DNA of 64,000 nt, taken from Chiridota heheva. Lineage: Eukaryota > Echinodermata > Holothuroidea > Apodida > Chiridotidae. This document shows, in pieces, positions 9,071 through 61,700 of the stretch (position 1 is its first letter; each line of letters begins with the position of its first letter). The notes beneath the pieces are model-generated. The model did not search any database and was not told the origin of the DNA. It saw only the letters and a list, made by a program, of their open reading frames with translations. The stretch spans positions 1,082,501 through 1,146,500 of the forward strand of contig JAIGNY010000132.1 in the NCBI GenBank assembly GCA_020152595.1, given 5' to 3'. The translations under genes were made by a program, and so were the position numbers.

Positions 9071-9074
9071 AAAA

Positions 9075-10055
9075 GTTGAATGCTCCAGATGAGTAACATA
9101 AGTGGCTGAATTAAATTTGAATGCTCTAGATGAATAACATAAGAGGCTGAATTAAATTTGAATGCTTCAGATGGATAACATAAGAGGCTGAATTAAATTT
9201 GAATGCTTCAGATGAATAACATAAGAGGCTGAATTAAATTTTAATGCTCCAGATGAATAACATAAGAGGCTGAATTAAATTTTAATGCTTCAGATGGATA
9301 ACATAAGAGGCTGAATTAAATTTTAATGCTCCAGATGAATAACACAAGAGGCTGAATTAAATTTGAATGCTTCAGATGGATAACATAAGAGGCTGAATTA
9401 AATTTTAATGCTTCAGATGAATAACATAAGAGGCTGAATTAAATTTTAATGCTCCAGATGAATAACATAAGAGGCTGAATTAAATTTTAATGCTTCAGAT
9501 GAATAACATAAGAGGCTGAATTAAATTTTAATGCTCCAGATGAATAACATAAGAGGCTGAATTAAATTTTATTGCTTCAGATGGATAACATAAGAGGCTG
9601 AATTAAATTTTAATGCTCCAGATGAATAACATAAGAGGCTGAATTAAATTTGAATGCTCCAAATGAATAACATAAGTGGCTGAATTAAATTTAAATGCTT
9701 CAGATGGATAACATAAGAGGCTGAATTAAATTTTAATGCTCCAGATGAATAACATAAGTGGCTGAATTAGATTTGAATGCCTCAGATGGATAACATAAGA
9801 GGCTGAATTAAATTTGAATGCTCCAGATGAATAACATAAGAGGCTGAAATTGAATGCGCTAAATGAATAACATAAGAGGCTGAAATAAATTTGAATGCTC
9901 GAGATGAATAACATAAGAGGCTGAATTAAATTTGAATGCTCCAGATGAATAACATAAGAGGCTGAATTAAATTTGAATGCTCCAGATGAATGACATAAGA
10001 GGCTGAATTAAATTTTAATGCTCCAGATGAATGACATAAGAGGCTGAATTAAATC
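9075..10055 (+). repeat. 41-bp minisatellite (about 24 copies) ending at the 3' splice site of coding exon 1
   Basis: The unit consists of TGCTCCAGATGAATAACATA followed by AGAGGCTGAATTAAATTTGAA. Copies alternate between CTCCAGATGAAT and CTTCAGATGGAT variants. The last unit ends in GGCTGAATTAAAT and passes straight into the polypyrimidine tract and CAG at 10068-10070. The CTGAA in that last unit (A at 10047-10048) is 22-23 nt from the splice site, a normal branch-point distance. The final copy may therefore supply the branch site. Confidence 0.9.
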
Positions 10056-10070: not shown

Positions 10071-10154
10071 GTGTGGATGTTTCTCATTCAACCACCATGA
10101 GCATCAGCAGTGATGAGGTCAACTTCCTGGTGTACAGATACCTTCAAGAATCCG
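10071..10154 (+). CDS. TBL1XR1: TBL1XR1-family coding exon 1 (start codon at 10097)
   Basis: The exon begins after a good acceptor (TTTTGTTTCAG) and carries 26 nt of 5'UTR. Its ATG at 10097-10099 sits in a strong context (ACCACCATGA). The coding part, 10097-10154, encodes residues 1-19 plus one base, starting [20 protein letters not shown]. This is the near-invariant N-terminus of TBL1X/TBL1XR1 and the start of the LisH dimerisation motif. The donor is G|GTAAAA (phase 1). The acceptor before the ATG shows that at least one noncoding exon lies further upstream. TBL1-family proteins act in the nucleus as subunits of the NCoR/SMRT-HDAC3 corepressor, where they exchange corepressors for coactivators and recruit ubiquitin machinery. 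The gene could equally be labelled TBL1X or ebi, since invertebrates usually have a single pro-orthologue. Confidence 0.95.
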
Positions 10155-10977
<823 letters not shown>

Positions 10978-12300: not shown

Positions 12301-12871
12301 ACTTTAAATTAAAATCTTGTAACAGTACTTTCTATCCCCAATGAAGATGTACTTGCATGACTAAGCTCCTAGAGTCCCAGGGGGCAGCGTTCAACAAATC
12401 GCCTGTCTGGACACCCGGGCAACTATTATTTATGTCCGGGCAAGTTAATTTACAAGTTGATATGCCCGCCGGGCAACCATAAATTGATCCAAACTAATAG
12501 AGTGAATTTCTCTTTAAAAACTTAATTCCTTACACATTGACCATTTTCTTTTCGTGACTTAGATTTTATGTTGTTTTTCCTTTGGGTTTTTGGTAAGACC
12601 TTTGCATTTTTCTTCATTCCTTAGCCTACACCCATCCTCCACCTAGCCTTCCACACACATCGCACTGGGGCTTGCCGCCCAGTGCGGGTAGCTCCCAGGC
12701 TTCTCCTTAACTTCTTCCACCTTCTTTTCCACCTGCGTTTTCCTCATTTTTCATCTACCTTCTACCCCTTCCTTCTCCCAGAACTGCTGCCCTTTTTTCA
12801 CCTCCCCTCCTCATTTTTCTTGACTTCAGTCATTAGTTTTCACCCTACTCTCTACTTTTGTTTCCATCACA

Positions 12872-14051
12872 ATGGAGACATCAGACCTCAATTTCTCCCC
12901 TCAAACTTCAGAACGTTCTTGTGAAATACCTCAAATGACCTTCCTCACCCCCTCTGCCTCTTTTTTCCCTCCCCTCCCCAACCTTCCTTCTCTCCTCACA
13001 TCTTCCCACCACCCCTCCCCACCATGGCCAAAGTTGATCATAGTCTCTTCCCCTCCGGCGACACAGGTCTCAAACCCCTTTCATCCTCACCACAGCCCTG
13101 CAAGGCCTCATTGGTACCCGACCATATTAAACACCGAGATCCGGAGACCTTGTCAAATGTTCTACCTCCACCCAGTCAAAACTCCTGGCTTCCACCACCC
13201 TTGCAAACACTGGAGTCAACATCTACCCCACCCCTCACTGCTACCTCAACTACTCCAGGGGGTCATCAAATTCCCTGATCTCCAGGGCACCCTCCTTGAG
13301 GAAATCAAAAGCTGAACTAGAGCCACAGGGCGTCACACACATTTGACAACTTTCTCTCTTCCGAAACAACAACACAATTCAGACCAACAACTACTTTCTC
13401 ACATTCAACACCCCACATCCATCCATGTATCTCCCCCTTCATCCCAAATCCCCTCAGATGCCACAATTGCCAAAAATACCGCCACAGTGAAAACAATTGC
13501 CAATCCCAACCCCGCTTTGTCTCCTGCGGCTCTTTCTCACTAGAAACCACTACTTGCAATAATGAACCCAACTGCATAAACTGCTCTGGAGATTACCCCA
13601 CCTCCCCCAACTCCTGCCCCAAGTGGCTCAGAGAGAAGGAGGTATCCAGGTTAAAAACCCTTTCAAAATTTCCTACCCCGAGGCCAGAAAGATCTTGGAC
13701 TCTAAATCCCCAAACCAACTCAACCAAAACACCCGCACTTATTCCCAAATTATCACCCACTCCAACTCAACCACCACCACAAACACCACCCCCACTTCCC
13801 AACCCACCTGCACTGTCTCCAAGGGCATCCAGACTGACATAGTCTGGGTCGACCAATTTTCCATTCAGGGAAAAACTGCTCTTACACCCTCTTCCATCCA
13901 CACCCACACCCCTCTTCCTCATCCACCAACACCTCGAGCCCCTCTAACCACCACGCTGCATCCCTCCCACAACCCAGAGGAAAACCTTTTCACAAACAAA
14001 CCCCTCCAAAAGATCATAATTCCCACAAGACCACTTCACTTCAACGAATAA
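12872..14051 (+). pseudogene. LINE ORF1 (gag-like, zinc-knuckle) remnant
   Basis: Serine- and proline-rich frames starting near the ATG at 12872 lead to a zinc-knuckle region at about 13460-13625. Across frames one can read C..YRHSENNC, then a CG pair, then CNNEPNCINCSGDY and SCPKWLREKEV. These are the stacked CCHC motifs and the downstream CPKW..EKE segment of I/Jockey-type ORF1 proteins. A shift into another frame continues with VKNPFKISYPEARKIL, the usual follow-on in these proteins. Several frameshifts make it nonfunctional. The expected role is RNA binding in the retrotransposon RNP. Confidence 0.7.
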
Positions 14052-14383
14052 CCAAAGACAACTCACAAAACATCCACAGATCCCCCGCCAACCGACACAG
14101 ACCACCTTAATCTTACCTTACCATTCAAGCCAAAAAACCCAACCCAACACTAACAGAACCCCTTCAACGAATCCAACCAAACCAAACCTACCGAACTCAA
14201 GACACCATCTACTCAACATCAATCCCCCAAGTCACCCCTCAGTGATGGGGGAGAACCCTCAATCAAACTTTCTTCCTCTTTAACTCTCCCTTCCATCGAG
14301 CACAACCCCTTGCAAGACATGGAGGTCGAACAGCCCCCTCCGGACTGGGGGCCTCGGGAGTCCCTTTTTCCACATCACTTTTA

Positions 14384-15115
14384 AATGGCAGAAATTCCAG
14401 GAAATTGCCGCGGTCTCTCTGCCAACTTCGAAGAACATGAACTTCTGATATCTACCTTCAACCCTAGCATTATTTGCCTACAAAAAAACGTTTTTTACCT
14501 CCCCCAACTCCATTTCCATCCCAGGGTACACGGGATCTCATTTTATCACTCATAATGCCAGAAGAGCTCCTGGTGGCTCTTCTATTTACATCAGAAATGA
14601 CGTCCCATCCCAATTCAATCTGACCTCCAGGTTACCTACTGTTTTGCCACCTTAGACAAAAACATCACTTTTTGCAACCCCCAAACTCCCCCTTACCCCC
14701 TCTGACCTCGACGACCTCATCTCCCAACTTCCCAAACCCTTCATCCTAACAGGTGATTTCAACCCATACAACCCCCTTTGGGGCTCTACCTCTACTGCCA
14801 GAGGAAAACTAAATAAAAATCTCCTAAACCATTACAAGCTTTGCCTCCGCAACAAAGGCTCCCTTACTTATTTACACCCTGTCCATCTGCGACCTCTCCC
14901 TCTTTGTTGATTTTTCAGACTGGAAGGTTCACCCTTCACTCAGCGGGAGTGACCATTTCCCCATCCTCATCTCCACCCTCCCCCTTCGTCACATCCTTTC
15001 CCAACCAACTGGAGATTTCGGCATGCAGACTGGGGCCTCTATTCCACTCTGTGTAATATCTTCATCACCAACAACATCCTTCTCTCCAATAACCCCGTCT
15101 CTCTCTTCACTTCAA
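14384..15115 (+). pseudogene. LINE ORF2 apurinic endonuclease remnant
   Basis: The frame from 14384 reads CRGLSANFEEHELLISTFNP followed by SIICLQKN, the N-terminal motif of LINE endonucleases (CRGL..N..EL..L......ICLQE), with the catalytic E replaced by K. Further on, ILTGDFNPYNPLWGS is the GDFN.HNPLWGS core, and a GSDHFPI-like motif appears in a shifted frame near 14945. Stops and frameshifts at several points disable it. The family role is nicking the target DNA for target-primed reverse transcription. Confidence 0.75.
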
Positions 15116-15589
15116 GATCTTGGAAGTCGCCAGTTTCACTATTCCCACTTCCACCTTCACCCCACAGAACTTCAAACCCTGGTTTACCACTGACTGCAAA
15201 AAGCTATCTCCCTCAAGAACAAAGCTTTGCATCTCTTCAAACCCCCCCCCCCCCCCCACCCCCCCTCCTTACCCCAAAACCTCGATACCTTTCACCTCAG
15301 AGCCAAGGCCAGGAAGACCATCAAACTCAGCAAAAAGGTCTCCTGGGACACCTATGTCTCATCCTTGGATCTCCAGACCACCCTCCAAGGTCTGGAACAT
15401 GATGAACAACTTCAAAGGGAAAAGCTCCTCCAACAATATCTCTCATCTCATCCATAACAACACCAAAATTACTGACCTCAAACACATCACCGGCCGCCTA
15501 GCCTCCACTTTCGCCAATACCTCCTCCATTGAAAATCTTTCTCACTCCTGCAATTTCTCACTCCTTCTGCAACCAGAAAATTGAGGCTG

Positions 15590-16330
15590 AAAAGAAGCTT
15601 CCTAACTTCCAGTCTAACAATCAGAAAAACAACAACCTTCCATTCACCAACTCCGAGATCTCCTTCGCCCTAAAAAAAAATCTGGATCCTCCTCTCAAGG
15701 CCCTGACGGCATCCACTACAATCTACTCAGAAACCTCCCCAGTAATACTTAGACATCCTCAAACAATTACCTGTGGTCCTCACACTTTCTCCAATACCTG
15801 GAGAGAGGCCATCATCACCTCCATCCCCAAGCCTAACAAGAACAGGTCCAACCCCAATAACTACCAGCCCATCGCTCTTACCTCCTGCCTCTGCAAGATC
15901 ATGGAACATATGGTCAACAACAGGCTCTGTTGGTACCTTGAGAAGAACTCCATCCTCTCCCCCACTCAAAATGGTTTCAGGAAAAACCAAAACTGCCTGG
16001 ACCACATCCTCAAACTTGACATCTACATCTGTGAAAGCCTTTGTCAGAAATCATCACGCCATCTCTATCTTGTTTGACCTCGAAAAGGCCTTCACCACTT
16101 GGTGGTATGGTGTCCTCAGGGACCTTCATTCTCTGGCCTCAGAGGTCACCTCCCCACCTTCATCTAGAATTTTCATCTGAAACACTTACTCCCAAAGGTA
16201 CACCCAACAACTAGGTATCCCCCAAGGCAGCATCCTCTCCCCTACTGCCTTTATCCTCATAATTAAGAGCATCACCAAAACTCTCACCCCCAACATTAAA
16301 TGCTCCCTCTATGTTGACTATCTACTCATC
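15590..16330 (+). pseudogene. LINE ORF2 reverse transcriptase remnant
   Basis: Conserved RT blocks are readable across frames: WREAIITSIPKPNK...NYQPIALTSCLCKIMEHMV, then GFRKNQNCLDHIL, then FDLEKAFTT (block A), GIPQGSILSPTAF (block B) and LYVDYLLI (block C). In block C the expected YVDD reads YVDY, and block A lacks the usual aspartate. With the frameshifts near 16080 and 16300, this copy cannot be active. Confidence 0.8.
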
Positions 16331-16783
16331 CTTCTCATGCTTCCATACTCTCCAAAATAATCTTCAACACTGCCTGGACAGCCTGGCTCACTGGAGCAAC
16401 TCCCAACAGTTTCCGCTTCTCAAAAGACTAAACTGTTCTCATCCATTTCTACAACAAAAACTCCTTTTTCCTCCACCCCATCTCCTCCCCAAAGATGTCA
16501 ATATCCCTAGTAAAGACAGTTCTCGCTTCCCCGGAATCTCTCTCTATTCCAAACTCTCCTATCTTCCCCACATCAACACCCTCAAAACCAATTGTCACAA
16601 AAACCTGTCTCCTCAAGGTCCTCTTCAGCACTGAATGGGGAGGCAATAGTCACACACTACTCACCTTATACTGCTCCCTTCTCAGATCCAGGCTAGACTA
16701 TGGTAACTTCATCTATGCCTCCTCCCACAAACTTTACTTGAAACACCTGAAGGTCACTAAAAACACTGCCTTAAGGCTTTGCC

Positions 16784-17716
16784 TTGGCGCCACTCACACC
16801 TCTACCATCACCAGTCTACACGTCGAGGCCAACGAACTCCCCTTTGACCTCAGATGCACGAAGGCCGGCCTCTTTTTTGTTCTCTGCATCCTCACCGATC
16901 CGCGGAACCCTTGCTTCCATTCCATCCACTCCCCCTCATTCACTAACCTCTTTACTCTCAACAAATGCATCCCCCACCTTTCAGGATCCGGATGCACTCC
17001 CACTTCTCCAAAACCCAACATTAACATTTTCTCGATTGCCAGACACACCATCCCACCCACCCCCTCCTGGACTATTTCCCAAGGTATATCTTGGTCTTTC
17101 CGTCTTTATGAAAGCTTATCACAACCCAGCCTTCTTTCACTCCAAATACTTCCAACTCTGTAGACATTTCCATGACTACTCCTTCCTCTTCACTGACGGC
17201 TCCTCACAGGAAAGCTCCTTTGCAGTTGCCGCCGCCTGTCCTGTCCTTACCCTCTCCTCAAGGCTGACTGTCGGAACCTCTATCTACTCTGCTGAAGCAA
17301 AGGCCATCCTCCTGGCCTTAAACTTCATAGAACTCTCCTTCTACCCCTGTTTCGTCATCTTCTCTGACTCTAAATCCGTACTCACTGGCATTCTTAACAT
17401 GTGCTGGCCCAACCCTATCATTCTACAAATCCTCAACAAACTTCACGCTCTTTCCTCTTTAGGGAAAAAAATTATCTTTTTCTGGATCCCCAGCCATGAC
17501 GGCATCCCTGGCAACAAGAGAGCTGACAGAGCCGCCAACAAAGCTCTGTCAAATAACATTTATCTTTTTCCAATTCCGCACTCAGATCTCCATCTCTCCA
17601 TTTCCAATTACATCGGTAAGACCTGGCAAGACTCCTGGAATCATGAAACCAGTAACAAACTTCACACCATCAAACCCAAAGTCGGGACCAAGACCCCCTT
17701 CCCCCCCGCACAGTAG
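16784..17716 (+). pseudogene. LINE ORF2 C-terminus with RNase H domain
   Basis: This 310-codon frame is the longest surviving piece of the element. Near its middle it reads FLFTDGSSQESS, then IYSAEAKAILLALNFIELS, then FVIFSDSKSVLTGI and FFWIPSHDGIPGNKRADRAA. These are the D-E-D-H(D) motifs of a type I RNase H as found in I-superclade LINEs. The following region, in another frame, reads VVTRIRLGHSSLTHSHLLSG (near 17735), the usual C-terminal R.R.GH...TH motif. Catalytic residues look intact, but the upstream RT is broken. Confidence 0.8.
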
Positions 17717-17945
17717 CAATCGCAGGGAAGACGTCGTTGTCACCCGCATCCGCCTCGGTCACTCCTCTCTCACCCACTCCCATCTCCTTTCTGGCTTCCC
17801 TGTCCCACCTGCAACACCGAACTCTCCATGAAGCATATCTTCTTAACCTCTCCCCTATACCTGAACTCCAGGTCTCTTCTCTCCTTACCCACCTCATTCT
17901 CGGATCTATTTACCCTTACTCTCCCAAGGTTCCAAAAATAGAATA

Positions 17946-21184: not shown

Positions 21185-21374
21185 GATGGGTCTGTGATAG
21201 ATACAAGATCCTTAGACTCACTGTCCCTCATTGATGCCGTCATGCCAGACATCATATCAAACAGAAAATCGGAGCTTAGCAAGCAGGCTGCAGCCAACAA
21301 CCAAAATGCTGTTAAAGTAGAGGGCGGTGTTACAGTCAAAGAAGAAGAGAACACAAATAATTCAGTTCCACAGA
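21185..21374 (+). CDS. TBL1XR1: TBL1XR1-family coding exon 3 (linker)
   Basis: Residues 69-131 plus one base. The acceptor is GATGTTCTCAG and the donor A|GTGAGT (phase 1). It encodes DGSVIDTRSLDSLSLIDAVM and PDII, matching the conserved E-DGT...IESLSLIDAVMPDV segment of the family. A low-complexity linker rich in A, Q, N, E and K follows (KQAAANNQNAVKVEGG, then KEEENTNNS). The linker corresponds to the poly-alanine/glutamine region of vertebrate TBL1XR1, which varies between species. Reading through the donor would add only a few codons before a stop at 21395-21397. Confidence 0.93.
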
Positions 21375-33589: not shown

Positions 33590-33722
33590 TTAATCACAGC
33601 GAACCAATGGAGGTGGAGTCAGGTGTTGAAATTCCTTCCAGCAAAGCAACTGTCCTGCGGGGTCATGAACTGGAAGTCTTCAGCTGTGCTTGGAACCCCT
33701 GCCAAGATCTCTTAGCTTCAGG
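33590..33722 (+). CDS. TBL1XR1: TBL1XR1-family coding exon 4 (start of WD40 repeat 1)
   Basis: Residues 132-175 plus two bases. Acceptor TTTTTGTCCAG, donor GG|GTTCGT (phase 2; a weak donor). It encodes [20 protein letters not shown] followed by [20 protein letters not shown]. It aligns with the vertebrate segment leading into WD40 repeat 1 (VLRGHESEVFICAWNP...LLASGS). The GH and the hydrophobic core of the blade are present. Joining to exon 5 restores [11 protein letters not shown]. Confidence 0.93.
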
Positions 33723-38394: not shown

Positions 38395-38533
38395 CTCTGG
38401 TGACTCCACGGCAAGGATATGGAATCTGAATGAAAGCAGCGGTTCTCCTCAACATATGGTGCTCAGACATTGTATCAGGGATGGCGGTCAGGAGGTACCC
38501 AGTAACAAGGATGTTACCTCACTTGATTGGAAT
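38395..38533 (+). CDS. TBL1XR1: TBL1XR1-family coding exon 5 (end of WD1, start of WD2)
   Basis: Residues 176-222. Acceptor TTCTGTGCAG, donor AAT|GTGAGT (phase 0). It encodes [11 protein letters not shown] closing WD40 repeat 1. Next come a short variable loop (NESSGSPQH) and [20 protein letters not shown] followed by TSLDWN at the start of repeat 2. The [21 protein letters not shown] string is a hallmark of the TBL1 family. Confidence 0.95.
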
Positions 38534-38639: not shown

Positions 38640-38975
38640 AGACATATAGCGATATTTAATTCTCAGTATATAGCGATATATAGTTTTCGGTATATAGTGA
38701 TATGTAGTTTGCATTGTATAGCGATATATAGTTCTCGGTATATAGCGATATATATTTATCGGTGTATAGCGATACATAGTTCTCGGTATATAGCGATATA
38801 TAGTTATTGGTGTATAGCGATATATAGTTATCGGTGTATAGCGATATATAATTCTCGGTATATAGTGATATATAGTTCTCGGTATACAGCGATATATAGT
38901 TTTCAGTATATAGCGATATGTAGTTATCGGTATATAGCGATATATAGTTCTCGGTGTATAGCGATATACAGTGCT
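38640..38975. repeat. 24-bp minisatellite (about 14 copies)
   Basis: The unit is AGCGATATATAGTTCTCGGT followed by ATAT, with C/T and A/G variants. Because 24 is a multiple of three, frames stay open on both strands (IYRYIPRTIYRYTP-type peptides). This is not coding. The array begins about 107 bp after the donor of exon 5. Confidence 0.9.
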
Positions 38976-42762: not shown

Positions 42763-43107
42763 TGTGATGGAACAAAACTTGCTACAGGGTCCTATGACGG
42801 TCACGCTAGAATATGGAACACAGAGGGTAGATTGGTCAGTACCCTCGGTCAACACAAGGGCCCAATCTTTGCTCTGAAGTGGAATAAAAAAGGCAATTAC
42901 ATCCTGAGTGCTGGAGTGGACAAAACGACCATCATCTGGGATGCTCAGACAGGAGAGTGTAAACAGCAGTTCCCATTTCACACTGCACCTGCGCTTGATG
43001 TTGATTGGCAGTCCAATAATTGCTTTGCTTCCTGCTCCACTGATCAGTGCATCCATGTTTGTAAGCTTGGCTTAGATAAACCTGTAAAGACCTTCCAAGG
43101 ACACACG
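42763..43107 (+). CDS. TBL1XR1: TBL1XR1-family coding exon 6 (WD2-WD5)
   Basis: Residues 223-337, the largest exon, phase 0 at both ends (CTCTTACAG|TGT ... ACG|GTAAGA). It completes WD40 repeat 2 ([13 protein letters not shown]), carries repeat 3 ([32 protein letters not shown]) and repeat 4 ([25 protein letters not shown]), and opens repeat 5 (KTFQGHT). These blocks are nearly identical to vertebrate TBL1XR1. The beta-propeller mediates contacts with NCoR/SMRT partners, histones and regulatory proteins. It is the best-conserved exon in the window. Confidence 0.97.
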
Positions 43108-44134: not shown

Positions 44135-44149
44135 GGGTTAGTGTTTTAT

Positions 44150-45832
44150 TATGAATTACCATATAAATCTAGGTTTTTGATTATGGATTACCTTATATAT
44201 CTAGGCTTTTGATTATGGATTACCTTATATATCTAGGTTTTTGATTATGGATTACCTTATATATCTAGGTTTTTGATTATGGATTACCTTATATATCTAG
44301 GTTTTTGATTATGGATTACCTTATATATCTAGGCTTTTGATTATGGATTACCTTATATATCTAGGTTTTTGATTATGGATTACCTTATATATCTAGGTTT
44401 TTGATTATGGATTACCTTATATATCTAGGCTTTTGATTTTGGATTACCTTATATATCTAGGTTTTTGATTATGGATTACCTTATATATCTAGGTTTTTGA
44501 TTATGGATTACCTTATATATCTAGGTTTTTGATTATGGATTACCTTATATATCTAGGTTTTTGATTATGGATTACCTTATATATCTAGGCTTTTGATTAT
44601 GGATTACCTTATATATCTAGGTTTTGATTATGGATTACCTTATATATCTAGGTTTTTGATTATGGATTACCTTATATATCTAGGTTTTTGATTATGGATT
44701 ACCTTATATATCTAGGTTTTTGATTATGGATTACCTTATATATCTAGGTTTTTGATTATGGATTACCTTATATATCTAGGTTTTTGATTATGGATTACCT
44801 TATATATCTAGCTTTTTGATTATGGATTACCTTATATATCTAGGTTTTGATTATGGATTACCTTATATATCTAGGTTTTTGATTATGGATTACCTTATAT
44901 ATCTAGGTTTTTGATTATGGATTACCTTATATATCTAGGCTTTTGATTATGGATTACCTTATATATCTAGGTTTTTGATTATGGATTACCTTATATATCT
45001 AGGTTTTTGATTATGGATTACCTTATATATCTAGGTTTTTGATTATGGATTACCTTATATATCTAGGTTTTTGATTATGGATTACCTTATATATCTAGGT
45101 TTTTGATTATGGATTACCTTATATATCTAGGTTTTTGATTATGGATTACCTTATATATCTAGCTTTTTGATTATGGATTACCTTATATATCTAGGTTTTT
45201 GATTATGGATTACCTTATATATCTAGCTTTTTGGTTATGGATTACCTTATATATCTAGGTTTTTGATTATGGATTACCTTATATATCTAGGTTTTTGATT
45301 ATGGATTACCTTATATATCTAGGTTTTTGATTATGGATTACCTTATATATCTAGCTTTTGATTATGGATTACCTTATATATCTAGGTTTTTGATTATGGA
45401 TTACCTTATATATCTAGGTTTTGATTATGGATTACCTTATATATCTAGGTTTTTGATTATGGATTACCTTATATATCTAGGCTTTTGATTATGGATTACC
45501 TTATATATCTAGGTTTTTGATTATGGATTACCTTATATATCTAGGTTTTTGATTATGGATTACCTTATATATCTAGGTTTTGATTATGGATTACCTTATA
45601 TATCTAGGTTTTTGATTATGGATTACCTTATATATCTAGGTTTTTGATTATGGATTACCTTATATATCTAGGTTTTTGATTATGGATTACCTTATATATC
45701 TAGCTTTTTGATTATGGATTACCTTATATATCTAGGTTTTTGATTATGGATTACCTTATATATCTAGCTTTTTGGTTATGGATTACCTTATATATCTAGC
45801 TTTTTGATTATGGATTACCTTATATATCTAGC
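44150..45832 (+). repeat. 32-bp minisatellite (about 52 copies), ends 45 bp before exon 7
   Basis: The unit is AGGTTTTTGATTATGGATTA plus CCTTATATATCT, very homogeneous, with GGCTTTTG and GCTTTTTG variants and occasional 31-bp units. Variant units recur in blocks (for example AGCTTTTTGGTTATGG near 45225 and 45766), which indicates block duplication. The array stops at 45832; the acceptor of exon 7 is at 45877. Confidence 0.93.
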
Positions 45833-45877: not shown

Positions 45878-45952
45878 AATGAAGTAAATGCTATCAAGTG
45901 GGATCCTAATGGAACAATGTTAGCTTCCTGTTCAGATGATATGACGCTAAAG
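45878..45952 (+). CDS. TBL1XR1: TBL1XR1-family coding exon 7 (WD5)
   Basis: Residues 338-362, phase 0 both sides (TTTTGTAG|AAT ... AAG|GTAAGT). It encodes [20 protein letters not shown] followed by DMTLK, the centre of WD40 repeat 5. It is identical to vertebrate family members at nearly all positions. Its small size (75 bp) and the flanking repeat arrays make splicing fidelity here of interest. Confidence 0.95.
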
Positions 45953-51246: not shown

Positions 51247-51359
51247 ATCTGGTCTATGAAGCAGGACACATGTGTGCATGATTTACAGGCTCATAGCAAA
51301 GAGATCTACACCATCAAGTGGAGCCCTAGCAATCCAAATACCCCTCTTATGTTGGCAAG
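51247..51359 (+). CDS. TBL1XR1: TBL1XR1-family coding exon 8 (end of WD5, start of WD6)
   Basis: Residues 363-399 plus two bases. Acceptor CTTACACAG, donor GCAAG|GTATTT (phase 2). It encodes [37 protein letters not shown] and part of S, matching the family segment [16 protein letters not shown]...NPN..LMLASAS. The donor is poor downstream of GTA (TTT instead of AGT). The last 32 bases of this exon are the source of the 35-bp satellite that starts at the splice site. The reading frame stays open through the donor to a stop at 52123-52125, but that extension is repeat and does not resemble any TBL1 protein. Confidence 0.95.
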
Positions 51360-54300
51360 GTATTTAATCCTTTATACCCTCTTATGTTGGCAAGGTATCC
51401 AATCCTTTATACCCTCTTATGTTGGCAAGGTATCCAATCTTTTATGCCCTCTTATGTTGGCAAGGTATCCAATCCTTTATACCCTCTTATGTAGGCAAGG
51501 TATCCAATCCTTTGTACCCTCTTATGTTGGCAAGGTATCCAATCCTTTATACCCTCTTATGTTGGCAAGGTATCCAATCCTTTATACCCTCTTATGTTGG
51601 CAAGGTATCCAATCCTTTATACCCTCTTATGTTAGAACGGTATTCAATCCTTTATACCCTCTTATGTTGGCAAGGTATCCAATCCTATATACCCTCTTAT
51701 GTTGGCAAGGTATCCAATCCTGGATACCCCTTTATGTTGGCAAGGTATCCAATCCTTTATACCCTCTTATGTTGGCAAGGTATCCAATCCTATATACCCT
51801 CTTATGTTGGCAAGGTATCCAATCCTTTATACCCGCATTATGTTGGCAAGGTAACCAATCCTTTGTACCCTCTTATGTTGGCAAGGTATCCAATCCTTTA
51901 TCCCCTTATGGTGGCAAGGTATCCAATCCTTTATACCCTTATTATGTTGGCAATGTATCCAATCCTTTATGCCCTCTTATGTTGGCAAGGTATCCAATCC
52001 TTGATACCCTCTTATGTTGGCAAGGTATCCAATCCTTTATACCCTCTTATGTTGGCAAGGTATCCAATCCTTTATACCCTCTTATGTTGGCAAGGTATCC
52101 AATCCTTTATACCCTCTTATGTTGACAAGGTATCCAATCCGTTATACCCTCTTATGTTGGCAAGGTATCCAATCCTATATACCCTCTTATGTTGACAAGG
52201 TATCCAATCCGTTATACCCTCTTATGTTGGCAAGGTATTCAATCCTTTATACCCTCTTATGTTGGCAAGGTATCCAATCCTTTGTACCCTTTTATGTTGG
52301 CAAGGTATCCAATCCTTTGTACCCTTTTATGTTGGCAAGGTATCCAATCCTTTATACCCTCTTATGTTGGAACGGTATTTAATCCTTTATACCCTCTTGT
52401 GTTGGCAAGGTATCCAATCCTTTTTACCCTCTTATGTTGGCAAGGTATTCAATCCTTTATACCCTCTTATGTTGCCAAGGTATCCAATCCTTTATACCCT
52501 CTTATGTTGGCAAGGTATCCAATCCTTTATACCCTCTTATGTTGGCAAGGTATCCAATCCTTTATACCCTCTTATGTTGGCAAGGTATCCAATCCTTTAT
52601 ACCCTCTTATGTTAGAATGGTATTCAATCCTTTATACCCTCTTATGTTGGCAAGGTATCCAATCCTTTATACCCTCTTATGTTGGCAAGGTATCCAATCC
52701 TTTATACCCTCTTATGTTAGAACGGTATTCAATCCTTTATACCCTCTTATGTTGGCAAGGTATCAATCCTATATACCCTCTTATGTTGGCAAGGTATCCA
52801 ATCCTGGATACCCCTTTATGTTGGCAAGGTATCCAATCCTTTATACCCTCTTATGTTGGCAAGGTATCCAATCCTATATACCCTCTTATGTTGGCAAGGT
52901 ATCCAATCCTTTATACCCGCATTATGTTGGCAAGGTAACCAATCCTTTGTACCCTCTTATGTTGGCAAGGTATCCAATCCTTTTTCCCCTTATGGTGGCA
53001 AGGTATCCAATCCTTTATACCCTTATTATGTTGGCAATGTATCCAATCCTTTATGCCCTCTTATGTTGGCAAGGTATCCAATCCTTTATACCCTCTTATG
53101 TTGGAACGGTATTTAATCCTTTATACCCTCTTATGTTGGCAAGGTATCCAATCCTTTATACCCTCTTATGTTGGCAAGGTATCCAATCCTTTATACCCTC
53201 TTATGTTGGCAAGGTATCCAATCCTTTATACCCTCTTATGTTGGCAAGGTATCCAATCCTTTATACCCTCTTATGTTGACAAGGTATCCAATCCGTTATA
53301 CCCTCTTATGTTGGCAAGGTATCCAATCCTATATACCCTCCTAAGTTGACAAGGTATCCAATCCGTTATACCCCTGATGTTGGCAAGGTAATCAATCCTT
53401 TATACCCTCTTATGTTGGCAAGGTATCCAATCCTTTGTACCCTTTTATGTTGGCAAGGTATCCAATCCTTTGTACCCTTTTATGTTGGCAAGGTATCCAA
53501 TCCTTTATACCCTCTTATGTTGCCAAGGTATCCAATCCTTTATACCATCTTATGTTGGCAAGGTATCCAATCCTATATACCCTCTTATGTTGGCAAGGTA
53601 TCCAATCCTATATACCCTCTTATGTTGGCAAGGTATCCAATCCTTTATACCCTCTTATGTTGGCAAGGTATCCAATCCTTTATACCCTCTTATGTTGGCA
53701 AGGTATCCAATCCTTTATACCCTCTTATGTTAGAACGGTATTCAATCCTTTATACCCTCTTGTGTTGGCAAGGTATCCAATCCTTTGTACCCTCTTATGT
53801 TGGCAAGGTATTCAATCCTTTATACCCTCTTATGTTGCCAAGGTATCCAATCCTTTATACCCTCTTATGTTGGCAAGGTATCCAATCCTATATACCCTCT
53901 TATGTTGGCAAGGTATCCAATCCTATATACCCTCTTATGTTGGCAAGGTATCCAATCCTTTATACCCTCTTATGTTGGCAAGGTATCCAATCCTTTATAC
54001 CCTCTTATGTTGGCAAGGTATCCAATCCTTTATACCCTCTTATGTTAGAACGGTATTCAATCCTTTATACCCTCTTATGTTGGCAAGGTATCCAATCCTT
54101 TATACCCTCTTATGTTGGCAAGGTATCCAATCCTTTATACCCTCTTATGTTAGAACGGTATTCAATCCTTTGTACCCTCTTATGTTGGCAAGGTATCCAA
54201 TCCTTTGTACCCTCTTATGTTGGCAAGGTATCCAATCCTTTATACCCTCTTATGTTGGCAAGGTATCCAATCCTTTATACCCTCTTATGTTGGAACGGTA

Positions 54301-55045
54301 TCCAATCCTTTATACCCTCTTATGTTGGCAAGGTATCCAATCCTTTATACCCTCTTATGTTGACAAGGTATCCAATCCGTTATACCCTCTTATGTTGGCA
54401 AGGTATCCAATCCTATATACCCTCCTATGTTGACAAGGTATCCAATCCGTTATACCCCTGATGTTGGCAAGGTATTCAATCCTTTATACCCTCTTATGTT
54501 GGCAAGGTATCTAATCCGTTATACCCTCTTATGTTGGCAAGGTATCCAATCCTTAATACCCTCTTATGTTGGCAAGGTATCCAATCCTTTATACCCTCTT
54601 ATGTTAGAACGGTATTCAATCCTTTGTACCCTCTTATGTTGGCAAGGTATCCAATCCTTTGTACCCTCTTATGTTGGCAAGGTATCCAATCCTTTATACC
54701 CTCTTATGTTGGCAAGGTATCCAATCCTTTATACCCTCTTATGTTGGCAAGGTATCCAATCCTTTATACCCTCTTATGTTGGAACGGTATCCAATCCTTT
54801 ATACCCTCTTATGTTGGCAAGGTATCCAATCCTTTATACCCTCTTATGTTGACAAGGTATCCAATCCGTTATACCCTCTTATGTTGGCAAGGTATCCAAT
54901 CCTATATACCCTCCTATGTTGACAAGGTATCCAATCCGTTATACCCCTGATGTTGGCAAGGTATTCAATCCTTTATGCCCTCTGATGTTGGCAAGGTATC
55001 CAATCTTTTGTACCCTCTTATGTTGGCAAGGTATGCAATCCTTTA
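51360..55045 (+). repeat. 35-bp satellite (about 105 copies) derived from the exon 8 / intron 8 junction
   Basis: The unit is CAATCCTTTATACCCTCTTA followed by TGTTGGCAAGGTATC. The end of exon 8 reads GCAATCCAAATACCCCTCTT ATGTTGGCAAG, then GTAT, so about 31 nt of each unit is exonic and 4 nt intronic. Nearly every unit therefore has a copy of the CAAG|GTAT donor. Variant units (AGAACGGTATTC, TGACAAGGTATCC...CCGTT, CCTGATG) recur in blocks about 1.08 kb apart, for example 51631-51985 against 52710-53063, showing higher-order duplication. All three + frames are open because 35 is not a multiple of 3 and the unit has no stop codon in any phase. Confidence 0.95.
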
Positions 55046-55790
55046 TTTTTTATAATCAGAAGAAATTTCCTTAAACGTTTTTGACTTTGACCAGTTTTTC
55101 TAGCTTATACCTCAAAGCTTTGTAAAAACTTGTATTCTTTTGTTGTGTTGATTAGAATAAGCTGGTGTACACTTACGATTCCCAACTGATGGATGTGCAT
55201 GCTCTTCTAACTTACTTCCTCTAAAACTATAGTAGTTAGACCAAATATTGCATGGTTCTAGTGCTGTTGATTTGCGATTAATTCAATAAACGTTTAATCA
55301 CAAAAATTTGTAAGCGTTTAGTTATTATTCGCATTCAAGCTTCACCCAAAAATTAGTAAAAAGAGAACTTGCAAGGAACTGGTACAGTTCCCACGCAAAC
55401 ATTCCATGCATTATCAGACCAAAAATAGGCCAAGAATCTTACCTAATGCAAATAGCATGTTTTATAATTACCAGTTAGGATAAAACTAGTTGAAAATACA
55501 GATTCTGGGTTAAGATGACATTAAAACAGGTGTAGAAGTAAAATATCAACAAGAAATGTTGCCGACTTCTGGCAGTCTGAGGTTCCACCTGCTCTGTCAC
55601 AAAATGATTTTGGTACAGATTGTACAGTATTGGTTAAAGCCTGTAATCAATTTTTAGCTCGACCATGTGAAAAAAAATTCTACTACCCTTAGCATCCATG
55701 TTTTTGATTAAAGTTTTCTTAGATTGTTGGTTAAAGTTTTCTTAGTTTGTTGGTTAAACTTTTTGGATGAGTCTGTTATGATAATGACAT
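55046..55790. other. Intron 8, AT-rich unique segment
   Basis: AT-rich intron DNA with no recognised gene, repeat array or transposon end. Confidence 0.55.
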
Positions 55791-55799
55791 TCGGGAACA

Positions 55800-56290
55800 T
55801 GAATAGGAATCAGAAGATTAGTCTTGTGATAAATGAAAAAACCAAATAAAAGATTCCTCTCCTCTGAAGAATTTTTAATAAGATATTTTGGGTATCAAAA
55901 GATATAAGAAGATTAGTCTTGTGATGAATGAAAAACCAAATAAAAGATATTCCTCACCTTTAAAAGCTTCCTCTCCTTTAGAGAATATATGATAAGATGT
56001 CTCGGGTATCAAAAGATATAAGAAGATTAGTCCTGGATAATGAAAAAAACAATTAAAAGTTTCACGCCTCTAAATTATATTTAATATGATGTCTTGGGTA
56101 TCCAAAGATATAAGAATATTAGTCTTGTGATGAATGAAAAAAACAAATAAAAGTTTACTCGCCTCTAAAGAATATTAATAAGATGTCTTTGGTATCAAAA
56201 GATATCAGAAGGTTAGTCTTGTGATGAATGAAAGAACCAAATAAAAAGGTTCCTCGCCACCAAAGAATATTTAATAAGATATGTTGGGTA
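55800..56290 (+). repeat. About 110-bp tandem repeat (5 diverged copies)
   Basis: The phrase GAAGATTAGTCTTGTGATGA ATGAAAAAACCAAATAAAAG, then TCCTC.CC...AAAGAATATT and AATAAGATGTCTTGGGTATC, recurs near 55810, 55910, 56020, 56110 and 56205. Parts resemble 57455-57500, linking it to the dispersed repeat there. Confidence 0.8.
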
Positions 56291-56334
56291 TTATGGGTTT
56301 TTGGAGTAGGTTTTTGTTATGATAATGATATTAG

Positions 56335-56740
56335 GATAAGGGTGGGATTTCATGTGGGACAGGGTGGAATTTTGTAGGGCACGGTGGGGTGGCTTGTTGG
56401 ACAGGGTGGGTTGGCATGTAGAACAGGGTGGGTTGGCATGTGGAACAGGGTGGGTTGGCATGTTGAACAGGGTGGGTTGATATGTGGAACAGAGTGGGTT
56501 GGCCATGTGGAACAGGGTGGGTCGACATGTGGGAAAGGGTGGAATGGCATGTGGGTTATGTGGTGAGGTGTCATCTGGATTTCAGTTGTGATGGCATGTG
56601 GGTCATGCATGTGGTGGAATGACATACAGTATCTGGTTTTGAGGTGTGATTGCATGAAGTATAGGTAAGCATGGAATGATATTTTGGACAGGTTGGGATG
56701 GAATGTGGGACAGGCTGGAATGTGCATTATTAGCAGTGAG
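56335..56740 (+). repeat. G-rich minisatellite, about 21 bp (GGCATGTGGAACAGGGTGGGTT)
   Basis: Regular 21-22-bp units from about 56380 to 56545, then more degenerate copies. Similar in sequence to the array at 59525-60230. Both arrays are followed by a related phrase (TTATTAGC.G.GAGG.GATTTG CATCGTTT at 56727 and 60224). The two are copies of one array plus flank. Confidence 0.85.
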
Positions 56741-57189
56741 GAGGTTTGTATCGTTTCCAATGTCTAGTTTGTCGTATGTTAGGCAATATTGTTTCGCATA
56801 ATTTTGCTTTAATGTTATTGTACATTTTTCATGCTGCTTGACTTTGCTTGACACACATATTTTCTTAAATTGGTATTACAATCCATGATGTAGTTCTGGG
56901 AATGTGTAGGGATTGGGGGAGGGTACAGGTTGAAAAGGTGGTTTAATGACATTTTTTCATTGACATTGGCAAGTCAGGGCCTCTCCTTTCTTTGTTGTTC
57001 AATTGATAGAACTAAAAGAGGTGTTATAATTGTTAAGACTGTTAGCTTTTAACCTGTTTTCTGAGTTATTGGGTGATGGTAACCTTGAGCTTTTGTCTTA
57101 AGATATCTGGGAAAACCCTATAGATATTTTGAAGCTTCTAGTAAAATGTGAAAATTAACAAAGCAAATGAAAATGTAAGGGCACCTTTC
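56741..57189. other. Intron 8 spacer
   Basis: AT-rich DNA between arrays. No recognised feature. Confidence 0.5.
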
Positions 57190-57684
57190 AAAACTCAAGT
57201 AATTATCCCCTCACCAACAAAGTTGGTAAAGAGTGCTTATCGCATCTTTACCGTTTGTCCATCCGTTCGTTTGTCTGTCTGTCCGTCTGTTTGTCCGTCC
57301 ATCTGTTTGTTCGTTTGTTTGTCTGTCCATCCGTTTGTCAGTCCGTCCTTCCAGAAATGAATTGATATAAAGGAGAACAAATGCATTCCAGACTTGAATA
57401 GTAGCAATTAAAGAATTTGTTCTGGGATAAAAAACAAGGTTGAATAATAGAACTGACCCCTGAGTGGAATTTTTAATAAAGTGTCTTGGAAATGAATAGG
57501 GAAAAAATAAAAAGGTTTCTCTAGAATAGAAAGGACACATAAAAGACTTATGATAAACTCCCAAGTTAATCTGCAATGAATTTTGATCAGGTAGATAGAA
57601 CAGCCCTATTTGGTTATATAAGGTTCAGCATGTTTCATTGGAAGTGACAGATTTAAGTTAAGGCTGGGGGGCTGTAATACAATG
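57190..57684 (+). repeat. Dispersed repeat, copy 2 (with CTGTCCGTCTGT tract)
   Basis: It aligns with 43670-44134: TTATCCCCTCACCAACAAAG TTGGTAAAGAG, later AGACTTATGATAAACTCCCA and GTGACAGATTTAAGTTAAGG. It has an extra low-complexity GTCTGTCCGTCTG tract at 57255-57350. As in copy 1, a minisatellite begins directly after its 3' end. Confidence 0.65.
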
Positions 57685-59520
57685 GTGTGAGTGGAAGTTA
57701 TAATGAAGGTCTGAATGATAAGTTGGTTAAGAGTATATTTGGTAGATGAGTGAATGGCAAAAGGTGGGTTGGGGTAGTAGGTGAATGGATGATGGTTGGG
57801 GATGGTAGGTGAATGGGGATGGTAGGTGAATGGGGAGTGATAGGTGAATGGGGATGGTAGGTAAATGGGGTTGATAGGTGAATGGGGATGGTAGGTGAAT
57901 TGGGGATGGCAGGTGAATGGGGATGGTTGAGGAATAGAAGATGGTAGGTGAATGGAGGATGGTAGATGAATGGATGATGCCAGGTGAAGGGGATGGTAGG
58001 TGAAGGGGATGGTAGGTGAAGGGAATGGTAGGTGAAGGGGATGGGAGGTGAAGGGGATGGTAGGTGAAGGGGATGGTAGGTGAAGGGGATGGTAGGTGAA
58101 GGGGATGGTAGGTGAAGGGGATGGTAGGTGAAGGGGATGGTAGGTGAAGGGGATGGTAGGTGAAGGGGATGGTAGGTGAAGGGGATGGTAGGTGAAGGTG
58201 TAGGTGAAGGGGATGGTAGGTGAAGGGGATGGTAGGTGAAGGGGATGGTAGGTGAAGGGGATGGTAGGTGAAGGGGATGGTAGGTGAAGGGGATGGTAGG
58301 TGAAGGGGATGGTAGGTGATGGTAGGTGAAGGGGATGGTAGGTGAAGGGGATGGTAGGTGAAGGGGATGGTAGGTGAAGGGGGTTGGTAGGTGAAGGGGG
58401 ATGGTAGGTGAAGGGGGATGGTAGGTGAAGGGGGATGGTAGGTGAAGGGGGATGGTAGGTGAAGGGGGATGGTAGGTGAAGGGGGAATGTTGAGTTGATA
58501 GAAATGAGGGGATGGGAGTTAAAGGAAGGAATGTTGGGTGCAATGAAGTGAGTGGAGCTTATAGTGAAGGTTGGAATGATGAACTGGTCAAGAGTATGTT
58601 TGGTAGATGCATGAGTGTATGGCAAAAAGTGGGTTGGGGTAGTAGGTTATTGGATGATATAAGGGGAATGGGAGATGGTAGGTGAATTGGGCATGGTAGG
58701 TGAATGGGGCATGGCGAATAGGAGATGTTAGGCGAATGGTAGGCGATTGGGGGATGGTAGGCGAATGGGGGATGGTAGGCGAATGGGAGATGGTAGGCGA
58801 ATAGGGCACGGTAAGTGAATGGGAGATGGTAGCTGAATGGTAGGCGAATGGTAGGCAAATGGGAGGCGAATGGGAGATGGTAGGCGAATGGGGGATGGTA
58901 GGCGAATTGGGGATGGTAAGCTAATGGGGGATGGTTGGTGAATGGGGGATAGTTGAGGAATAGAGGATGGTAGATAAACGGAGGATGGCAGGTAAAGGGG
59001 GATGGTAGGTGAATGGGGTATGTTGAGTTGATATATGTGAGGGGATGGGAGTTAGAGGAAGGGATGTTGGGTGCAATGGAGTAAGTGGAGGTTATAGTGA
59101 AGGTTGGAATGATAAACTGGTTAAGAGAATATTTGGTAGATGCATGGGTGTATGGCAAAAGGTGGGTTGGGGTAGTAAGTGAATGGATAATATTAGGGAA
59201 TGGGGATGGTAGGTGAATGGGGGATGGTAGGTGAATAGGGGATGTAAGTGAATTGGGGGTGGTAGGTGAATGGGGTGGATGATAGGTGAATCGGGGATGG
59301 TAGGTGAATCGGGGATGGTAGGCGAACGGGGCATGTTGAGGAATGGAAGATGGTAGGTGAATGGAGGATGGTAGATGAATGGAGGATGGCAGGTGAAGGG
59401 GGACGGTAGGTGAATGTGGTATGTTGAGTTGATAGAAGTGAGGAGATGGGAGTTAGAGGAAGGAATGTTGGGTGGAAGATGGTAGAATGATTGTTTGATA
59501 AAGGAATTAAGATAAAAGTA
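57685..59520 (+). repeat. Composite minisatellite: 16-bp GGATGGTAGGTGAAGG runs in a higher-order unit
   Basis: Runs of the 16-bp unit (most homogeneous at 57975-58490) alternate with an approximately 150-bp spacer, itself repeated. The spacer contains TTATAGTGAAGGTTGGAATGA, AAGAGTATGTTTGGTAGATG and GGCAAAA.GTGGGTTGGGGT. It occurs at about 57695, 58557 and 59093, with a partial copy (TGTTGAGTTGATAGAAGTGA) near 59420. Long minus-strand frames (HLPSPSPTIPFTYHP) are products of the repeat. Confidence 0.92.
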
Positions 59521-59524
59521 GGAT

Positions 59525-60235
59525 GACATTGGGGACAGGATGGGATGAAACGTGGGACAGGGTGGGATGGCATGTGGGACAGGGTGGCATGTGGGACAGG
59601 GTGGCATGTGGGACAGGGTGGCATGCGGGATGGTGGCATGTGGGACAGGGTATCATGGAATGTGGGACAGGATGTCCATGGCATATAGGACAGGGTGGGA
59701 TAGCATGTGGGGACAGGGTAGAACAAGGTAGTGTCATGACATTTATGACAGGCTCTTATGGCATGTGGGACTAGGTGGGAAGGCATGTAGGACAGAGTGT
59801 AATAATATGTGAGACAGGATGGCATATCTGGATTTCAGGTGGGATAGGACGGTGGATAGCATGTGGGTTAGGATGGAATGGCCCGTAGGACAGGGTGGGA
59901 TGACATGTGGTACATGGAATGATGGCATATGGGACAGGGTAGGATGGCACATGGTACAGGGAGGGATGGGATGTGGGACAAGGTGGCATGATATATGGGA
60001 GAGGGAGGGTTGGCATGTGAGACAAGAGCGGCATGGTATATGGGACAGGGTGGCAAGGCATATAGTTAGGTGTCATCTTGATTGCAGGTGTGATGACATA
60101 TGGGTCATGTTGTGGAATGGTATCTGGATTTCCTGTATGATTTCCTGTAGGGAGGGATATAGGAAGGAATATCATACAGAACAGAGGGTGGGATGGCATA
60201 TGTGACATAGGGTGGAAAGAATGTTATTAGCGGCG
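59525..60235 (+). repeat. G-rich minisatellite, GGCATGTGGGACAGGGTGG type
   Basis: Degenerate units of about 19-22 bp, with GTGGGACAGGGTGGCATGTG best preserved at 59575-59640. Related to 56335-56740. Minus-strand HPVPHAIPPCPTCHP-type frames are repeat artefacts. Confidence 0.87.

Positions 60236-61700
<1,465 letters not shown>

Follow-up and report, generated by a model that had tools for sequence, protein, structure and literature searches.

A 106-unit, 35-bp minisatellite spanning an exon/intron boundary in a TBL1XR1-like gene of the holothurian Chiridota heheva

Minisatellite-like tandem duplications lying across an intron/exon boundary have been described in amphioxus as mirages, the cases listed being Adh3, BflGb6, BflGb9, PGBD5 and troponin C (PMC3087553, PMC3902484). 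According to the globin paper, many mirage units, but not all, carry AG/GT and with it potential cryptic sites; the same paper reports length instability, and its globin RT-PCR, together with the Adh3 data, suggests that regular splicing is unaffected (PMC3087553). In BflGb9, it is the 3' boundary of exon 2 that became duplicated (PMC3087553). No aberrant mRNAs reportedly arise from the mirages of Adh and TnC, and the PGBD5 mirage is described as repeats of 60 and 108 bp, the 108-bp one being a triplication (PMC3902484). A comparable structure is known from humans, the 31-bp VNTR of CBS, c.1444_1467+7(16_21), whose unit joins the 3' end of an exon to the beginning of the following intron (PMC2630376, PMC5188458). 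Tandem duplication of AGGT-containing segments is also the basis of the Rogers model of intron gain, reviewed in PMC4974935. As far as these accounts go, the architecture that we report here is one already described, in the amphioxus mirages and the human CBS VNTR, and what makes the present array notable is its length.

We analyzed a window of 64,000 nt of the C. heheva genome (contig JAIGNY010000132.1), in which nine exons of a TBL1XR1-like gene were mapped on the + strand by tblastn placement, with an approximate human TBL1XR1 protein sequence as the query, and then by splice sites and reading frame. Exons 1 to 7 lie at 10071-10154, 10826-10971, 21185-21374, 33590-33722, 38395-38533, 42763-43107 and 45878-45952, the 113-nt coding exon 8 at 51247-51359 and exon 9 at 60814-60979. 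The spliced reading frame of the nine exons is continuous over 455 residues, and the resulting protein matches chain 5naf_A of human TBL1XR1 with an E value of 1.8e-191, in agreement with the TBL1-type gene proposed in an earlier sequence-only reading of this DNA. For the last part of the human sequence, starting at about residue 473, no convincing tblastn match was obtained downstream in the window, and the remaining 3' exons therefore probably lie beyond the window. NCBIfam, a prokaryotic library, yielded no family for the spliced protein. Intron 8 (51360-60813) is 9454 nt long and its first 3.7 kb are taken up by the array; it begins with the authentic exon-8 5' splice site, AAG|GTATTT (intronic part at 51360-51365), and the frame resumes in exon 9 at 60814.

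The array extends over 51342-55046 of the + strand, starting inside exon 8 and running on into intron 8. TRF describes it as a 35-bp period with 106.0 copies and 92% matches. Its consensus unit is CCCTCTTATGTTGGCAAG|GTATCCAATCCTTTATA, where CCCTCTTATGTTGGCAAG corresponds to the last 18 nt of exon 8. Wraparound alignment of this consensus resolved 106 units, a number read from one haplotype that could be affected by assembly; they fall into 37 distinct types, with 36 units identical to the consensus and a mean identity of 0.96. A pattern count found 105 donors, spaced by exactly 35 nt in 94 of the 104 intervals, and the 106th, which carries a one-base deletion (52760), was added for the tallies of frame and score. 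These results confirm the existence of the array as tandem 35-bp copies of the exon-8/intron-8 junction, and the gene's own 5' splice site is indeed repeated as had been claimed, the authentic donor being accompanied by 105 further GT donors.

Above the level of the single unit, the array contains exact internal repeats of 172-280 nt, at lags that include 489, 1084 and 315 nt. The longest one found is a 280-nt block at 54208-54487, with an exact second copy 489 nt downstream (54697), and a 220-nt block at 51680-51899 recurs exactly 1084 nt downstream (52764), a higher-order duplication within the array. Overall identity is only 0.58-0.72 at the six long lags for which exact repeats reach 150 nt or more. 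Regarding secondary structure, the predicted folds of three units (105 nt; -13.5 vs -13.2) and of six units (-29.2 vs -31.0) are no better than those of shuffles, and the fold predicted for exon 8 together with the first two units is worse than in shuffles (z +2.78). Rfam gave no match at gathering score within the window and no tRNA was found there.

The longest exact identity between the end of exon 8 and the consensus unit is 22 nt, comprising 18 exonic nucleotides, all of them (18/18) identical to the coding exon end, plus GTAT. The residues encoded by this exon end belong to the LMLAS segment, which human TBL1XR1 conserves, and both results uphold the view that exon 8 is the ancestor of the unit. 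The 18 boundary segments of the nine exons (9 acceptors and 9 donors) were aligned to the unit; the exon-8 donor segment consisted of the 40 nt ending at the exon end, by which the array was excluded, and the other segments of 80 nt. In this comparison, which includes the alignment of exon 8 and unit that the sequence-only reading had proposed as a check, the exon-8 donor segment scored 42 against a null mean of 11.8, with none of 500 shuffles as high, and the remaining 17 segments gave P values from 0.038 (exon-5 acceptor, the lowest, uncorrected for 17 tests) to 1.0. Elsewhere in the window (outside 51301-55060), the longest exact match to the unit is 10 nt on the + strand and 11 nt on the - strand. 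The 22-nt exact match, with none comparable at the 17 other boundary segments, supports the origin of the array from exon 8.

The same reading had matched about 31 nt of each unit to the last 32 nt of exon 8. This part has to be corrected, as the exact match covers only 22 nt (18 exonic and 4 intronic) and agreement in register extends to 24 of 35 positions. An extended exon homology of 31 nt was not found: beyond the 18 nt, CAATCC alone, one block of 6 positions, matches in register (in shuffles, a run of 6 has P 0.003 and a run of 5, the length present in the first unit, P 0.014). From these alignments, 18 exonic plus 17 intronic nucleotides is a better description of the unit than a long exon match. 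We also compared the consensus units of seven of the 17 other arrays in our merged list with the exons; the longest shared words measured 7-9 nt (+) and 6-11 nt (-), the 11-nt word belonging to the array that starts at 9072, compared with 18 nt for the exon-8 array, and as judged from these words the seven show no sign of exon derivation.

Other repetitive sequences occur along the gene. Four further minisatellites, at 9072-10054, 38644-38972, 44144-45831 and 61045-61700, end 17, 111, 47 and 66 nt from exon edges, and the exon match of their units does not exceed 11 nt. Leaving the exon-8 array aside, 3 of the 10 arrays of at least 300 nt lie within 110 nt of an exon, where 0.39 would be expected if exon overlap is forbidden (P 0.005) and 1.74 if it is allowed (P 0.24), for an array list hand-merged from TRF output and a threshold picked after seeing the data. 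In the 24-bp repeat that follows exon 9 (61045-61700; about 27.5 copies), the acceptor-like string TTTTGTAG occurs 24 times; its eight bases are those with which the exon-7 acceptor ends. Long open frames run through this repeat on both strands. Intron 2 harbors retroelement remnants with broken frames (12824-17831), including matches to reverse transcriptase (PF00078) at 15502-16077 and to RNase H (PF00075) at 16775-17713. In intron 8, degenerate repeats such as GGGGATGGTAGGTGAA occupy 57798-59423 and show a strong G-over-C skew (GC skew +0.83 in 58001-60000).

The likeness to the mirages, as these are described, is close. The unit of C. heheva spans an exon/intron boundary (18 + 17 nt) and carries splice signals, with GT kept in 106 of 106 units and G at position -1 in 104; its 35 bp are bracketed by the unit lengths given for Adh3 (10-72 bp) and the globins (150-160 bp); internal homogenization is common to both; and, as in BflGb9, it is the 3' boundary of an exon that was duplicated. 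The mirages differ in copy number: two haplotypes of BflGb6 carry 6 and 3 units and PGBD5 has 3 x 108 bp, compared with 106 units here. The present gene is a TBL1XR1-like one known from one sequence alone. Internal block duplication may be read as an indirect sign, and the only one here, of a mirage-type length instability. The CBS VNTR likewise repeats the 5' splice site of its exon in every copy, but its unit consists of 24 + 7 nt and its 16-21 copies are polymorphic in humans and belong to another gene, whereas our 106 copies come from a single haplotype (PMC2630376, PMC5188458). The length of the array is striking, since the precedents for which we have counts (BflGb6, PGBD5 and CBS, thus not Adh3 or troponin C) reach 21 units at most.

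Besides the GT, the donor core GTA is intact in all 106 units, and 8 further unit columns are equally invariant. In permutations over the distinct unit types, conservation of the donor columns gave P values of 0.09 for GT, 0.03 for GTA, 0.07 for G|GT and 0.07 for positions -3 to +3. There is no firm sign of excess conservation and we do not claim selection on the donor columns, although the invariant GTA leaves some room for it. Donor scores, computed with approximate base frequencies, place the authentic donor (5.40) sixth among the nine donors of the gene. The commonest decoy, AAG|GTATCC, accounts for 81 of the 105 pattern-counted donors and scores 4.12; predicted pairing with U1 amounts to -5.7 kcal/mol for both the authentic donor and these commonest decoys, compared with -10.8 for the exon-7 donor. 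Four of the 105 decoys (51851, 52935, 53388 and 55031) outscore the authentic donor and one (54507) equals it. Among the stronger ones are GTAACC at 51851-51856 (7.10), which is out of frame (+491 nt), and the donor of the last unit, AAG|GTATGC at 55031-55036, with the top score in the array (8.19). With an authentic donor that is weak, U1 pairing that is equal and some decoys that are stronger, donor strength alone gives no preference for the first donor. The weakest of the nine gene donors is an unusual one, AGG|GTTCGT of exon 4 at 33722 (2.75).

Use of the other donors would have marked consequences for the protein. The exon-8 open reading frame ends at 52125, stop codon included, exactly where it had been placed before. 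Only 7 of the 106 donors leave the frame open to the end of exon 9, namely the authentic one and six that would add 35, 70, 105, 140, 210 or 245 residues; the arithmetic of in-frame modules in multiples of 35 residues was thus right, the number of alternative donors being six instead of up to about seven. The remaining 99 of the 105 extra donors lead to premature stops, in exon 9 after a frame shift in 15 cases and within the array in 84, as expected from the earlier statement that other copies shift the frame. In-frame additions would separate LMLA from SASFD, within a segment that human TBL1XR1 shares by conservation, at what we take to be a beta strand from the general topology of WD40 blades. 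On that topology, an insert of 35-245 residues would likely break a WD40 blade. Given that 99 of the 105 extra donors truncate the protein and six insert residues into it, a normal protein would be obtained from the first donor alone.

Based on our data, we consider it very probable that the array is a neutral and very long boundary-spanning minisatellite whose first donor is the one spliced, and that it probably has no function of its own. It would have begun with the tandem duplication of a 35-bp segment made up of 18 nt of exon end and 17 nt of intron start. The 5-bp direct repeat AATCC, found at 51331 and 51366 and thus exactly 35 nt apart, is a weak hint at a possible trigger that may have helped this first duplication; simple slippage at this repeat is disfavored, since after AATCC the consensus unit reads TTTATA and the exon AAATAC. 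Subsequent growth to about 106 units with higher-order blocks may have proceeded via slippage and unequal exchange, and the exact internal repeats fit block duplication by the latter process. Two points make the first donor the most likely one in use, namely that only the exon which it closes has a matching acceptor upstream and that it is the earliest to be transcribed; the entire array would then be removed with intron 8. As each unit holds a complete exon-end/donor junction, in-register exchange between any two units would restore an intact exon|GT junction. Growth and shrinkage of the array would thus leave the coding sequence unharmed, which may explain why it is tolerated.

Functional readings of the array have to be weighed against this one. 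The main rival, modeled on the association of the human CBS VNTR with activity, is an expression rheostat in which leaky use of array donors would yield frame-shifted mRNAs subject to nonsense-mediated decay, so that copy number would tune TBL1XR1 output. The commonest decoys, whose strength comes close to that of the authentic donor, the four that surpass it and the premature stops that follow from 99 of 105 donors all speak in its favor, but the donor columns carry no firm conservation signal and the amphioxus mirages reportedly do not disturb regular splicing (PMC3087553, PMC3902484), and we regard it as unlikely. The units are also acceptor-like, with a mean pyrimidine fraction of 0.70 before AAG|G compared with 0.59-0.82 for the nine acceptors of the gene, so that almost all units offer an AG|GT site with a potential double role as acceptor and donor. 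On this property might be built a ratchet or buffer for the stepwise splicing of intron 8, or the release, in some cells, of in-frame modules of 35n residues into a WD40 segment, with copy number setting the rate; this appears highly improbable to us. We give even less credit to a U1 platform, by which the array would bind many U1 particles and shield intron 8 from premature cleavage and polyadenylation. The remainder of intron 8, downstream of the 106 U1-like sites, does contain 11 A[AT]TAAA motifs (55285-57506) and the array itself has none, but this absence follows trivially from the repetition of one unit; moreover, pairing at the commonest sites falls far below that of the exon-7 donor, complementarity is by eye limited to AGGTA, and the seven other arrays compared show no sign of exon derivation, which suggests that long introns of this gene manage without a donor array. 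A decoy or U1 role thus gains little from sites whose pairing is as weak as that of the authentic donor and from donor columns with no firm excess of conservation, and the sequence-only reading was right to make no choice among noise, decoy and protector against polyadenylation.

Two further explanations concern the origin of the array. Part of its copy number could be an artefact, a genuine short array having been inflated by misassembly. Exact repeats of up to 280 nt would favor such an error, and aberrant assembly of a mirage in a draft genome is mentioned in the globin paper (PMC3087553), but the irregular order of 37 distinct unit types and the low overall identity at the long lags do not suggest a clean stack of one misplaced block, and we think this very unlikely; misassembly would in any case alter the copy number and not the nature of the feature. 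Following the AGGT model, intron 8 itself might have been born from an amplified exonic segment. Each tandem copy does contain AG|GT, the signal of that model (PMC4974935), but the array occupies the first part of a long intron, every unit is itself half intronic, and the 5.8 kb between the array and exon 9 hold no unit match above 11 nt. The model derives both intron ends from one duplicated segment, and the exon-9 acceptor region has no significant match to the unit (P 0.23), for which reason we rejected intron gain by AGGT duplication and hold it to be extremely improbable.

With the neutral minisatellite that we favor, a TBL1XR1-like gene joins those known to carry boundary-spanning minisatellites, at a length far beyond the counted cases. 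It also represents a natural test of 5' splice site choice, with more than 100 near-equal copies placed downstream, mostly at steps of 35 nt. As U1 pairing is no stronger at the authentic donor than at its commonest copies, exclusive use of the first donor, if true, would show that exon definition and the order of transcription outweigh donor strength.
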